This document shows, in pieces, positions 3,727-54,683 of a DNA stretch of 64,000 bases. A program made the translations under genes and the position numbers. Position 1 is the first letter of the stretch, and every line of letters starts with the position of its first letter. The stretch lies in the NCBI GenBank assembly GCA_014804695.1, contig JAAUZJ010000010.1:124933-188932 (forward strand). The letters run 5' to 3'. Under the pieces are notes generated by a model. It was not told the origin of the DNA and did not search any database. It saw only the letters and a program-made list of their open reading frames with translations. This stretch comes from Lachnospiraceae bacterium (GTDB lineage Bacteria > Bacillota > Clostridia > Lachnospirales > Lachnospiraceae).

Positions 3727-5733
3727 TTATTTTTTCATAATAGTTTTACAGCATGTATGGACAGTCATAAGGTAATAAATCAAATAAATTATTAATGTCA
3801 ACATAACAGCGATCATCACCGGTGTATATAGTGCAAGGCTGTTTTTCAGAAGATTCTGCATAAGGGCTGTTTTGTATACTAACGTAGCAAATATACAGTC
3901 TGTCAGACCGAATAAAAAGGGGATACTGAAAAATGTTACAGCCTGCTTTTGAATGATTCTTTTGATTTTTTTATTTGTATAGCCCATTTTTATCAGTGTG
4001 TCATAATCAGACTTTGAGTCGGTTATGGCTGAAATATTATTAAAGTAAAGTATACTTCCGGCTGCGATAAAGAACAACACTACAAGAAAGCCTATCAACA
4101 GAAAAGTGGAACTGTTTAAGGACATCACTTCATGTATCCTGTGAGAGTTACCCTGTAGATAAGGACTGTCGTTTAGATATTCGGACAGTGCTTTAAAAAG
4201 ATTCTCATTATTTGCAATGGACTTTCCGTTAATGCTGATAATTTTTGTTTCCGGGGCGGCATTTTCGGCTATTCTGTAATATAGATCATCACTTACGATC
4301 AATGTGCCGACACTGTTTGCGAATGAAATAGGGTTATCCAATGTAGTCATGGTTACTATAACGGGTACTTCTTCATTGTTTATGATAAGTGGATATATGT
4401 CGCCGGTTTCATCCTCGCCGGAAGCTGGCTGATATCTTACAAAAATACATTCATTGCTGTTTAATACGGCTAGCCGGTCTATAATTTTTTGCCTTCCCTG
4501 AGCTTTTAAGAGGGCAGTATAGTCTGAGTATGAGATACATTCAAATCCCGCATTCCGCAGGATTTTTTCATTATCTGCGTCGCCTTTTGAAGTTCCAACA
4601 CCATACTCCATAGGGAGCTGCTTAGCCGTAGAAGTGACCTTATAGATATCGGTCTGCAGGATGGTGATATCGTCCCCGGATGCATATTCGCTTATGAGCT
4701 GTCTGATTGAGGATATATCGCGTTCTTTTTCAATCCTGCATTCAATTTCCGATGGTGCAATGCGGGATACCGCAGCTATCGGATAATACAGGGAGAGTGC
4801 CATTACGCTTGAGACAGTCAGGGTAGCGGCCGATAATAGCGTAAGCATGATCAGTGTTTTGGAATTTGAACGCATACGATATATGAAATTAGGAGAAGTG
4901 ATAATTTTTATCGCTGTATAAAATTTCCGCTTGTTTCTTTTAGCTGTCTGTACTGCATAGGGAAGAAAGGACGCAATAAAAAGCACTGTACCAAAGAGGA
5001 CGAGCATAAGCGTCAGCATTCCGACAGGGGAAAAGCCGACTGTGATCCAGACAGATTTTTTCCCTCTTAATATATCAAGTGCAAGGCAATATCCTGATAT
5101 AACGGACAAAAGGCCAATGATGGATGGAACCGCATGAAATGTCGGCTGTTTTTCAGCACTCTTTTCAAATCGCACTAAATCCATGAGGGATGCCCTGAAA
5201 AGAAATATGCTGTTTGACAGGGCTAATATGATGACAACTACAAAAACAAAACAGGCTGTCTTAATAATAGCATTCGGATTAAAAAGTGGTATCTCTGAAA
5301 GATTGACTGCTAAAGTCAATAATCTTGTAATACCAAATACTATGCCTTTATGAAACAGGCCGCCTAAAAGGATTCCGATTATAAAGGCTGCGAAACAGGA
5401 GAGTAGATTCTCCGCTGTCAGTAAAGATAATATTGTAGATTTTCGGTATCCTAATAATGCGTAAATACCCAGTTCTTTTGTACGGCGGCGTAAAAAGAAA
5501 CGGTTTGAATATGACATATAAAAAACAACAAATGACATGAGAAACAGCGAAATAGTGTTGCACATTGTTTCCACACGCCCGTCACCTGATATTTTTTCAA
5601 GCATGACCGTATTCATGGAAAAAGAAGTAAATGCAAAGTAAATCGTTATGACGAATGAAACGGATAATAAATAAAGGGCGTAAAACGAGAAATTATTTTT
5701 TAGATTTTTAACTGCCATTGATAAATTTTTCAT
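3727..5733 (-). CDS. FtsX/MacB-type ABC transporter permease
   Basis: The 668-residue membrane protein has an N-terminal segment, a first FtsX-like helix block (residues ~55-290), a large extracellular domain (~320-525) and C-terminal helices (~535-660). The FxLGYRKSTI coupling-helix-like stretch (ELGIYALLGYRKSTILSL) is typical of permeases of the BceB/MacB group. It pairs with the ATPase encoded 12 nt upstream. BceAB-type transporters usually protect against cell-wall peptides. Here the neighbouring two-component system is of the NarL class rather than the usual BceRS class, so a peptide-resistance role is plausible but not shown. Confidence 0.88.
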   Translation of the reverse strand: MKNLSMAVKNLKNNFSFYALYLLSVSFVITIYFAFTSFSMNTVMLEKISGDGRVETMCNTISLFLMSFVVFYMSYSNRFFLRRRTKELGIYALLGYRKSTILSLLTAENLLSCFAAFIIGILLGGLFHKGIVFGITRLLTLAVNLSEIPLFNPNAIIKTACFVFVVVIILALSNSIFLFRASLMDLVRFEKSAEKQPTFHAVPSIIGLLSVISGYCLALDILRGKKSVWITVGFSPVGMLTLMLVLFGTVLFIASFLPYAVQTAKRNKRKFYTAIKIITSPNFIYRMRSNSKTLIMLTLLSAATLTVSSVMALSLYYPIAAVSRIAPSEIECRIEKERDISSIRQLISEYASGDDITILQTDIYKVTSTAKQLPMEYGVGTSKGDADNEKILRNAGFECISYSDYTALLKAQGRQKIIDRLAVLNSNECIFVRYQPASGEDETGDIYPLIINNEEVPVIVTMTTLDNPISFANSVGTLIVSDDLYYRIAENAAPETKIISINGKSIANNENLFKALSEYLNDSPYLQGNSHRIHEVMSLNSSTFLLIGFLVVLFFIAAGSILYFNNISAITDSKSDYDTLIKMGYTNKKIKRIIQKQAVTFFSIPFLFGLTDCIFATLVYKTALMQNLLKNSLALYTPVMIAVMLTLIIYLIYYLMTVHTCCKTIMKK

Positions 5734-17050: not shown

Positions 17051-17141
17051 CCAGAACTTAGGACAATATAAATAAAAACGGGGCGACCTTCGCTCCCGCG
17101 GTTCGAGCCCCGTTTTTATTTATATTGCCCTAAGTTCGTGG
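17051..17141 (+). repeat. palindromic repeat family, copy 1 (forward)
   Basis: Two 31-nt arms (17054-17084 and 17107-17137) pair with a single mismatch around a 22-nt loop. The inner stem is GC-rich (CGGGGC) and is flanked by an A tract on the left and a T5 tract on the right, so it resembles an intrinsic terminator in both directions. The variable arm base reads TATAAATAAAA, paired with TTTTATTTATA. The outer ends CCAGAACTTAG and CTAAGTTCGTGG are shared with the other copies. An 11-bp tandem duplication (17134-17155) follows. It lies between the nuclease-like gene and the gyrB-like promoter. Confidence 0.85.
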
Positions 17142-17170
17142 CATGTTCGTGGCATTTAAATAACACCCTT

Positions 17171-17199
17171 TTGCAATTTAAATCTTTTTATGGTAAAAT
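17171..17199 (+). promoter_or_regulatory. sigma-A promoter for the topoisomerase pair
   Basis: -35 TTGCAA (17171-17176), 17-nt spacer, -10 TAAAAT (17194-17199), 43 nt upstream of the gyrB-like ATG. It uses the same hexamers as the leuCD promoter. Confidence 0.65.
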
Positions 17200-40891: not shown

Positions 40892-41482
40892 ATGGCAAGG
40901 ACAGCAACAATTAAACGCAAAACTAAAGAGACAGACATTGCTTTAACGCTTGATCTGGATGGAAAGGGTAAGGGCAGGATAGAGACTGAAATCGGTTTTT
41001 TTAATCATATGCTTGAGGGTTTTGCAAAGCATGGTTTCTTTGATCTGACTGTATCGGTTCATGGAGACCTTGAGGTGGACGGGCATCATACTGTGGAAGA
41101 CACAGGTATAGTGCTTGGACAGGCGATTAAGGAAGCTGTTGGGAATAAAGCCGGTATAAAGAGGTTTGGCTCCTTTTTACTGCCTATGGATGATGCGCTG
41201 TGTTTATGTGCCATAGATTTATGCGGAAGGCCTTATCTTAATTTTGATTGTGATTTTAAGGCGGAACGCGTGGGGGAATTGGAGACCGAGCTTGTTAAGG
41301 AATTTTTCTATGCGGTGTCCTACAGTGCGGGCATGAATATACATATCAAGATGCTTTCAGGGGAAAATACGCATCATATGATAGAAGCTATGTTTAAGGC
41401 GTTTGGAAAGGCATTGGACGAAGCAACGTGTAAAGATGAACGGATTACCGATGTACTCAGCACAAAAGGGAGTTTGGCGTAG
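40892..41482 (+). CDS. hisB: imidazoleglycerol-phosphate dehydratase
   Basis: The 196-residue protein contains the metal-binding repeats FFNHMLEGFAKHG and DGHHTVEDTGI, with the later pair GENTHHMIEAMFKAFGKAL, all diagnostic of IGPD. It dehydrates imidazole glycerol phosphate. It follows hisD by 17 nt. Between it and the hisIE gene lies palindrome copy 2, a possible terminator within the operon. Confidence 0.97.
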   Translation: MARTATIKRKTKETDIALTLDLDGKGKGRIETEIGFFNHMLEGFAKHGFFDLTVSVHGDLEVDGHHTVEDTGIVLGQAIKEAVGNKAGIKRFGSFLLPMDDALCLCAIDLCGRPYLNFDCDFKAERVGELETELVKEFFYAVSYSAGMNIHIKMLSGENTHHMIEAMFKAFGKALDEATCKDERITDVLSTKGSLA

Positions 41483-41508
41483 AGGATTGCGAAAGGGCTT
41501 GTTTATAG

Positions 41509-41599
41509 CCACGAACTTAGGCAATATAAACAAAAAACGGGGTTCGACCGCGGGAGCGAACTCACCCCGCCTTTTTGTTTATATTGTCTAAGTTCTGGA
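41509..41599 (-). repeat. palindromic repeat family, copy 2 (inverted)
   Basis: Arms at 41513-41542 and 41565-41595 pair over about 30 bp around a 22-nt loop. The variable arm base reads TATAAACAAAA on the left, paired with TTTTGTTTATA on the right. The loop TTCGACCGCGGGAGCGAACT is the reverse complement of the copy 1/copy 3 loop, so this copy is inverted. The inner CGGGG/CCCCG stem ends in a C-C-T5 tract. It lies in the 175-nt hisB-hisIE gap. Confidence 0.85.
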
Positions 41600-41657
41600 T
41601 ATCGAAAATGGGGTTCGCAATCATCTAGGGAAGTCTGGCGTAAAGAGAGGAAATATA

Positions 41658-53267: not shown

Positions 53268-53885
53268 GTGTGTAAACCATTGAAAAAAGTAGGAATCATG
53301 GGCGGAACATTTAATCCGATCCATATAGGTCATCTTATTATAGCAGAAAGAGCAAGAGAGCAGTTTGACTTGGAAGAAGTGCTTTTTATGCCCTGTGGCA
53401 TGCCTTATATGAAGGATACAAGCGAGTTGCTCCCCTCAGATATCAGGGCCAAAATGGTCTCTTTAGCAATTAAAGACAACCCCTTTTTCGCACTTTCTAC
53501 CATAGAAATTGAAAAAAAGGGCAGTACTTACACTTACGAGACCTTAGAAAAACTAAGATGCGAAAATCCTGACACCGAATATTATTTCATCCTGGGCGCT
53601 GACAGTCTCTGGACTATTTCCGACTGGAAAGAACCTGAAAGAATATTTGCAAATTGTCATATTCTAGCGGCAGTCCGCGACGACAAATCGGCTCAGGATA
53701 TGAAGAAGCGTATAAATTTTTTAAAAAATAAATTTGGCGCTGGCATTTCTCTGTTAAAAACAGGGCAAATAGAGATTTCTTCTTCAGTTATACGTAATTT
53801 GGTTAAAGAAAATATGTCAGTCCGTTATCTGGTGCCAAATACAGTATACGAATACATTGTTGAAAATAGATTATACAAAAACTAA
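53268..53885 (+). CDS. nadD: nicotinate-nucleotide adenylyltransferase
   Basis: The 205-residue protein has GIMGGTFNPIHIGHLIIAE and the SSSVIRN motif of NadD. It converts nicotinate mononucleotide to deamido-NAD. The start is GTG at 53268 with a weak AGAAAG upstream; a TTG at 53280 is possible. The 140-nt gap from yhbY is AT-rich with direct short repeats of TTGCA and no gene. Palindrome copy 3 lies between this gene and yqeK. Confidence 0.95.
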   Translation: MCKPLKKVGIMGGTFNPIHIGHLIIAERAREQFDLEEVLFMPCGMPYMKDTSELLPSDIRAKMVSLAIKDNPFFALSTIEIEKKGSTYTYETLEKLRCENPDTEYYFILGADSLWTISDWKEPERIFANCHILAAVRDDKSAQDMKKRINFLKNKFGAGISLLKTGQIEISSSVIRNLVKENMSVRYLVPNTVYEYIVENRLYKN

Positions 53886-53947: not shown

Positions 53948-54037
53948 CCAGAACTTAGACAATATAAAGAAAAAGGCGGGGTGAGTTACGCTCCTGCGTC
54001 CGAACCCCGTTTTTTCTTTATATTGCCTAAGTTCGTC
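53948..54037 (+). repeat. palindromic repeat family, copy 3 (forward)
   Basis: Arms at 53951-53981 and 54005-54034 pair over about 30 bp around a 23-nt loop. The variable arm base reads TATAAAGAAAA, paired with TTTTCTTTATA. Left-right asymmetries (GAC on the left arm versus GGC on the right-arm complement; GGCGGGG versus ACGGGG) match copy 2 in inverted orientation, which fixes this copy as forward. The right inner arm ends in CCCCG and T6. It lies in the 216-nt nadD-yqeK gap. Confidence 0.85.
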
Positions 54038-54101: not shown

Positions 54102-54683
54102 ATGAAAACAATAAGCCTGAAAAAATTACGAAAAGCAATGGAAAGCGAATTGAACCCTAAGCGTTATGAACATACCTTGGCCGTGGCCTACACCGCCGCC
54201 AACCTTGCAATGGTACACGGCGTAGATACCAGAAACGCGACAATTGCCGGAATGCTGCATGATTGCGCCAAATGTCTTCCTGATCAAAAACTCATTTCCA
54301 TATGTAAGAAAAATTCCTTAGATATTTCGGAAATAGAGTTACATAATCCATCAGCCCTGCTTCATGCAAAGGCGGGAAGCGTTCTGGCACATAAAAAATA
54401 CGGCGTTAATGACGAAGATATTTTAAATGCCATAAAATATCATACAACCGGCCGTCCTAATATGAGTAAACTGGAGAAAATACTATATATTGCCGATTAT
54501 ATAGAGCCGGACAGGAAACATGCGCCGAATTTAGCTCAGGTACGCCGTATGGCATATCAGGATTTGGACAAGACTCTTTTAAAAATATTGGATGACACCT
54601 TATCTTATCTAAACTCAACAGGTGGTCAGATTGATCCTATGACTAAGAAAACCTATGAATACTATAATAATATTTCAAAGTAG
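54102..54683 (+). CDS. yqeK: HD-domain hydrolase YqeK
   Basis: The 193-residue HD-domain protein has RYEHTLAVAYTA and AGMLHDCAK (His and His-Asp metal ligands) plus the later ADYIEPDRKH. YqeK homologues hydrolyse diadenosine tetraphosphate. It follows nadD as in Bacillus (with rsfS next). AAAGGAG is upstream. Palindrome copy 3 separates it from nadD. Confidence 0.93.
   Translation: MKTISLKKLRKAMESELNPKRYEHTLAVAYTAANLAMVHGVDTRNATIAGMLHDCAKCLPDQKLISICKKNSLDISEIELHNPSALLHAKAGSVLAHKKYGVNDEDILNAIKYHTTGRPNMSKLEKILYIADYIEPDRKHAPNLAQVRRMAYQDLDKTLLKILDDTLSYLNSTGGQIDPMTKKTYEYYNNISK

Follow-up and report, generated by a model that had tools for sequence, protein, structure and literature searches.

Dispersed palindromes of a Lachnospiraceae genome as the hairpin cores of a MITE that appear to outlive its ends

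The 64,000-nucleotide stretch of a Lachnospiraceae genome analysed here (the window) carries three dispersed palindromes, which raises the question of what these repeats are and why their two arms change in step. A sequence-only reading had placed them at 17051-17141, 41509-41599 and 53948-54037, had noticed that one arm position reads T, C and G in copies 1, 2 and 3 and is faced by A, G and C, respectively, and had argued from these paired changes that the hairpin itself is maintained. All three palindromes are present at these sites and the arm position is paired as claimed, reading UA 25, CG 24, GC 2 and UG 1 times over 52 copies; the arm asymmetries of copies 2 and 3 likewise agree once one of them is inverted. 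That these are true copies and not chance was confirmed with a covariance model built from 26 copies, 25 of them from the source genome of the window (G000; the three window copies included) and one from G011, which gave E-values of 2e-23 to 4e-20 for all three in the window and found there, up to E 10, only these copies and their reverse strands. In addition, the arm pattern had 43 matches in the 3.65-Mb genome vs. 0 with a reversed-pattern control, and five strands taken from four copies (copies 2 and 3 included) folded with z-scores of -7.8 to -12.3. With the core bounded by the initial G of GAACTTAG and the final C of CTAAGTTC, its limits (Table 1) lie a few bases inside the coordinates of the earlier reading. 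The repeat is nonetheless larger than had been described, with the palindrome being its core only.

Table 1. Features of the three copies and their neighbours in the window
Feature	Position	Strand	Basis or remark
Copy 1, neighbouring 245-aa ORF	end 17034		
Copy 1, hairpin core, 84 bp	17054..17137	-	covariance model
Copy 1, decayed terminal repeat on the far side, TTTTGCAATTTAAAT	17169..17183	-	motif score 7.6
Copy 1, neighbouring type II topoisomerase B subunit gene	start 17243		
Copy 2, neighbouring IGP dehydratase gene	40892-41482		
Copy 2, left target-site duplication, GGGAGTTTGGCG	41468..41479	.	last codons of IGP dehydratase gene
Copy 2, whole element, 148 bp	41480..41627	+	terminal repeats, spacers, hairpin core
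Copy 2, terminal repeats	41480-41494 and 41613-41627		
Copy 2, hairpin core, 83 bp	41513..41595	+	covariance model
Copy 2, right target-site duplication, GGAAGTCTGGCG	41629..41640	.	
Copy 3, neighbouring cytidylyltransferase-like gene	53268-53885		
Copy 3, decayed terminal repeat, TAGTTAATGGTGAAA	53919..53933	+	
Copy 3, hairpin core, 84 bp	53951..54034	-	covariance model
Copy 3, decayed terminal repeat, reverse complement GTAGGAATTGTGAAA	54053..54067	-	
Copy 3, neighbouring HD-domain gene	54102-54683		

The family extends far beyond three copies. The covariance model gave at least 54 matches in G000; within the 644,583 bases of this genome scanned with it, 110 strand matches marked 55 places, and a copy outside that scan (C14:95764, L028) brings the number to at least 56. 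Its presence in related Lachnospiraceae was likewise borne out, with matches at E <= 0.001 in 14 of the 77 genomes of the genus and in 7 of the 397 genomes of a family-wide draw, G000 included; a match in G074 was discarded as spurious, being a different hairpin on inspection. Among named genomes, the exact two-arm pattern was found in 7 stretches of three uncultured Lachnospiraceae assemblies. The earlier reader did not recognize the family, and Rfam returned 0 matches at the gathering score for the window and six loci. Of the two outcomes that the earlier reading had named as refuting it, a mere three copies lacking covariation and a match to a named repeat, neither occurred. Plasmid and phage collections had no match to copy 2 with its flanks, nor did viral contigs match the exact pattern of two ends 100-130 bp apart. 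A literature search, with subscription journals mostly outside it and hence weak support for an absence, found no description of this family, be it under its terminal-repeat strings or as a MITE or REP of Lachnospiraceae.

What surrounds the palindrome was revealed by its flanks. In G000, the element is ~145 bp long. Its terminal inverted repeat, TAGGYAATTGCGAAA(C), measures 15-16 bp and is followed inward by a ~17-bp spacer; the hairpin takes up ~83 bp and combines a long stem with an apical part that is conserved. When the G000 flanks were aligned on TAGGYAATTGCGAAA, 79 of 110 scored above 4, and 66 of these 79 did so at 15-19 nt from the core; the same procedure on 20 shuffled flank sets yielded 34-53 flanks above 4 and 2-16 at 15-19 nt. 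The terminal repeats are decayed in G000; of its 27 copies in which both ends could be scored, only 2 have a flanking duplication at a score of >=7, which arises in 0.43% of 3,000 mismatched flank pairs. Copy 2 retains recognizable terminal repeats on both sides and is bordered by a 12-bp duplication with 10 of 12 positions identical, and the stop codon of the IGP dehydratase gene next to it is the TAG formed by the first bases of the element (41480-41482). In copy 1, which has one extra base pair, in both arms, vs. most copies, the far-side terminal repeat lies at a distance of 31 due to an 11-bp duplication in the spacer, and the other terminal repeat has decayed beyond calling.

The same ends are found in other genera. 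In G248, 173 terminal-repeat matches with no more than one mismatch were found vs. 1 match of the reversed-pattern control. Among 46 end pairings from ~350 kb of this genome chosen for terminal-repeat matches (a few pairings overlap), 19 had 9-13-bp direct repeats at their borders vs. 130 of 20,000 mismatched flank pairs (0.65%), and in 23 the ends were 142-143 bp apart; the border repeats are 80% A+T. Three further genera (G436, G190 and G267) harbor the same ends with 9-14-bp duplications, some with one mismatch, and the interiors between these ends are other palindromes. A TA-only target duplication, as in IS630-like elements, had been considered and was dropped on seeing the 9-14-bp duplications. 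Terminal inverted repeats, a target-site duplication and a short, non-coding, multicopy form were thus all found, and because the ends are intact and the target duplications readable in other Lachnospiraceae genera, we are nearly certain that the family is a MITE, non-autonomous and ~145 bp in G000. The elements sharing these ends across genera are a MITE superfamily. At one G248 locus (L255:7672-8251), several elements form a row in which the 11-bp target duplications between neighbours are identical or almost so (ACAAAATGTCT, ACATAATGCCT), as though fresh insertions had repeatedly landed beside old copies. G267 has two 55-bp forms without the hairpin, 1.4 kb apart and with near-identical interiors (L333:200-254 and L333:1570-1624), hinting that this mini form may itself move and that the hairpin may not be needed for movement.

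As a non-autonomous element, it would depend on a transposase acting in trans that recognizes the terminal repeats. The sequence-only reading had proposed looking for a RAYT or other transposase gene, and dispersed intergenic palindromes together with the one Y1 transposase in G000 do resemble REP sequences moved by a RAYT (Y1) transposase. This link found no support: the Y1 transposase occurs in 30 of the 77 genomes of the genus and had no match in G007, G021 and G077 despite 52, 22 and 44 element matches, respectively, in assemblies 94-96% (G007 and G021) and 84% (G077) complete. Furthermore, Y1 transposition is not known to make target-site duplications, which are present here, and the hairpin feet are AC and TG, with no GTAG at the 5' foot. 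Unlike REP sequences, the Lachnospiraceae element is also larger, has terminal repeats and lacks a RAYT association, so that an origin as a RAYT-moved palindrome is scarcely credible to us. More generally, no transposase with the ends of the element was found among PF01609 loci in nine genomes or beside unpaired ends in the G248 stretches, the transposase families searched being PF01609 and, across the genus, Y1. The intact PF01609 transposase of G000, which we take to be IS1182-like, was rejected as a partner, given that its element (L241:1-1490) has other ends (GGACCTGTTGACAAACT); a broken relative is found at L239. None of the PF01609 loci of G248, G011, G007, G267, G436 and G190, viewed up to at most 1.5 kb beyond each match, had the ends of the element as an inverted pair around the gene, with one G436 locus (L340) having a hairpin element to one side; PF01609 matches were absent from G052 and G243. 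Also rejected was a 3-kb stretch of G267 between two perfect ends, which comprises panC/panD/coaBC-like genes and separate small elements. The 14 largest clusters of similar neighbouring ORFs were made up of frames reading through the element, of ABC ATPases and of other widespread genes, with none like a shared transposase. We surmise that the partner may belong to another family than those searched or may have been lost.

To return to the arms, we examined covariation in a structure-blind alignment that held 52 of the 55 copies (L100_14214 was left out for its Ns, L099_4791 and L107_7663 as divergent). The stem of 23 pairs is paired in 98.7% of cells, and 15 of the 23 pairs have double changes, for a total of 114 double-change cells vs. 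18 one-sided cells (11 of them at one pair) and 16 unpaired ones. By our own count, of cells and not of events, 41 of the 114 have no G-U wobble bridge to the commonest pair. The covariation score was 0.305 vs. 0.098 for shuffled and 0.024-0.044 for slid alignments (0 of 500 shuffles). The part of the earlier argument stating that pairing is kept through compensatory changes is thus borne out over 52 copies; the further step, that paired changes show the hairpin to be maintained, does not follow from double changes alone. A single template-switching event can alter both arms, a mechanism for which PMC8794818 argues in the case of RNA genes, and since such switching can mimic covariation, covariation by itself is no proof of selection for pairing.

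The fold does have features that are not a matter of pairing. Hardly any variation is seen in the AC of the 5' foot, the TG of the 3' foot and the apical CGC[GA]GGAGCG; throughout the 52 aligned copies the C preceding the stem is invariant, and the T that follows the stem almost is. An internal loop, GGG[CT]GA...GA[AG]CCC, follows the strict pattern in 48 of the 55 G000 copies (counted without a chance control), with a closing pair that is either C-G or T-A; it recurs at 20 of 42 loci of other species, a count in which the offset may miss some, including four other genera (G275, G243, G238 and G296). The foot of the stem is in turn hypervariable: in each of four G243 and three G275 copies the lower stem is paired and has a sequence of its own. 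Between loci, cores that belong to the same loop class are almost identical, and the lower stems in which they differ are specific to the locus. Additional concentric layers surround some copies, where GAACTnAGGCAAT, the foot string, or a relative of it recurs further out, in some of them on both arms (L095:1-330, L094:14040-14340, L103:9540-9840 and, in G021, L051); at L094, G000 shows two or three layers and G077 a single one, suggesting that layers are gained or lost quickly.

Whether the hairpin is held in place can be judged at loci shared with the sister species G077, which is 87-94% identical to G000 in pieces of one 9-kb region. Of the 55 G000 loci, 27 could be placed in G077, 13 with a core and 14 with none; for the other 28, the 1.11 Mb of G077 compared had no orthologous stretch. 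We read 12 of the 14 core-less sites (L080 and L085 left out). Four are deletion relics (L095_12067, L099_1631, L094_17824 and L086), and short direct repeats, GTTTC and TCTAA, can explain two of these; at L090_2431 the G077 stretch stops at a contig end, and none of the remaining sites is readable as a clean empty site. L095_12067, with outer repeats and no core in G077, had been considered an ancestral target and was re-read by eye as a deletion between GTTTC repeats. None of the 12 sites has a full-length copy with a core worn by substitutions, and therefore the result on the G077 side is not simply an effect of detection, whereas the G000 side is conditioned on detection, as copies were chosen for an intact core.

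At 11 of the 13 shared loci (L099_4638 and L099_4791 were left out as hybrid or rearranged), divergence was 21.1% outside the element (167/792), 21.4% in the terminal repeat (80/374) and 24.5% in the spacer (78/319) vs. 2/55 at the feet, 10.7% in the lower stem (33/308), 2.7% in the upper stem (6/220) and 5.0% in the apical part (19/383), figures that come from one species pair and of which the outside one is inflated by alignment gaps at a few loci. Because the core diverges far less than ends and spacers, the hairpin seems to be constrained in place, and on balance we lean toward a constraint acting on it after insertion. The slow apical change is a stronger sign of such constraint than the paired changes of the arms.

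Some of the same comparisons could be accounted for by mutation without function, i.e. a dead MITE in which pairing is neutrally kept by arm-to-arm template switching. Paired changes between G000 and G077 number three at L093, three at L103 and two at L081, the latter with a one-sided change between them, and at L102 one base has been inserted in both arms; multi-base changes and a symmetric insertion of this kind agree with that view, as do the published mechanism (PMC8794818) and deletions, L095_12067 and L099_1631 for example, that we read as bounded by short direct repeats. Pairing can also be lost, as at L033, where G077 has a foreign insert in one arm, and over ten shared loci we counted by eye ~12 paired and ~10 one-sided changes. 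Against mutation alone stand the unpaired features that have been kept, namely the C before and the T after the stem and the GA/GA internal loop (48 of 55, again without a chance control), as well as the 5.0% divergence of an apical region that is mostly not a simple stem vs. 21-25% in the ends. We consider a purely mutational origin unlikely.

Concerted evolution, with gene conversion among the many copies keeping cores alike without selection at each locus, appears rather improbable as well, a little more so. The near-identity across loci of cores of one loop class is in its favour, and a paralogue was nearer than the orthologue at 3 of 11 loci, while from the G077 side some G000 copy was nearer at 4 of 11 and none at 7. 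On the other hand, no G000 paralogue was nearer at 8 of 11 loci (ties at two), the loop class was kept at the ten shared loci viewed by eye save L102_3051, and lower-stem differences are locus-specific. The nearest-copy results speak against wholesale gene conversion, with some gene conversion being possible. At L099:4530-4990, G000 has two inverted copies 57 bp apart (4638-4733 and 4791-4886) and G077 apparently one hybrid hairpin; at 4791 the usual feet are missing, and the lower stem that holds the core is quite unlike the others.

If the fold is constrained, what might it do? Among 53 copies with two neighbouring genes, 43 lie in codirectional, 6 in convergent and 4 in divergent gaps; a stricter set of 39 gaps has 31, 6 and 2 vs. 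a background of 62/14/24% by intergenic length or 73/12/15% by number of gaps, a comparison made without a formal test and on ORFs called by length only. Over 38 codirectional cases, the median distance between the core and the stop codon of the upstream gene is 36.5 nt, which places this codon near the outer end of the terminal repeat; the repeat starts with TAG or TAA, and in 15 of the 38 the distance is 24-37 nt. By inspection, CCCCGTTTTT or a similar string occurs on both strands. A terminator scan of the three window copies (301-401 bases each) gave 0 sites, its loop limit of 8 excluding a hairpin of this shape. It is conceivable, albeit doubtful, that the hairpin has a role in the 3' region of transcripts in either orientation, be it termination or protection or processing of mRNA 3' ends. 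Element orientation in the 43 codirectional gaps shows no preference (20 vs. 23), which also bears on the idea of a non-mobile structured RNA gene family of Lachnospiraceae. Strong covariation and a conserved apical motif would suit such a family; the lack of preferred orientation, the terminal repeats with target duplications, the presence or absence of copies between sister species and the missing Rfam match do not, making this idea most improbable.

Taken as a whole, we believe the likely explanation to be a mobile MITE with a hairpin core constrained after insertion and arms rewritten by template switching. The element has spread through genomes by transposition, for which a transposase would act in trans; after insertion its ends decay and the hairpin core stays, the hairpin being deleted at some loci. 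The core would be constrained in place because the folded strand presumably has a cellular task, the most probable one being that of a hairpin in transcript 3' regions that could work in either orientation. We propose template switching because the arm changes are often paired, even as symmetric insertions, with few one-sided cells: new stem sequences would arise mostly through single events in which one arm serves as the template for the other, with fold-breaking variants being lost. In its strongest form, namely a transposon-derived hairpin that has become maintained by the cell, with spread, selection on the fold at each locus, rotting ends and arms rewritten by template switching, we hold this scenario only tentatively and short of an even chance.

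As a kind, the element is already known from palindromic MITEs such as ERIC, RPE and NEMIS. ERIC is a 100-150-bp imperfect palindrome with dozens of intergenic copies and no coding capacity, and by this description our element is alike in size, form, intergenic copies and lack of coding. It departs from ERIC and other palindromic MITEs, again by description, in its 9-14-bp duplications, its ends TAGGYAATTGCGAAA(C), a lower stem that is hypervariable but nearly always paired and a conserved apical internal loop. MITEs are reviewed in PMC10969869, which notes the Rickettsia palindromic elements (RPE) for in-frame insertion inside genes; these are 105-146 bp long with a predicted long stem-loop and terminal inverted repeats (PMC2229807). 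By description, the RPEs thus share size, stem-loop and terminal repeats with the Lachnospiraceae elements, which differ in lying between genes and in having readable target duplications in related genera. The Neisseria Correia/NEMIS element is likewise a MITE with a stem-loop, the transcribed form of which is proposed in PMC2229807 to undergo RNase III cleavage and thereby to regulate its neighbours. What appears to be new here are the terminal-repeat class, a hypervariable yet paired stem and a core that outlives its ends.

Covariation is widely taken as proof of functional RNA. In this family, paired changes at the same locus between sister species, in clusters of two or three or as a paired insertion, allow mutation and selection to be separated by experiment and comparison. 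If the strongest form of our scenario is true, the family would be a natural laboratory for the origin of compensatory base-pair changes, since each genome offers dozens of loci and the sister species are close. The terminal-repeat class, common to several Lachnospiraceae genera, is usable for annotation masking or as strain markers. G000 itself also harbors other palindromic families of 208-236 bp (L208:2215-2450, L217:1501-1728 and L230:1501-1708), with similar terminal repeats and different interiors.
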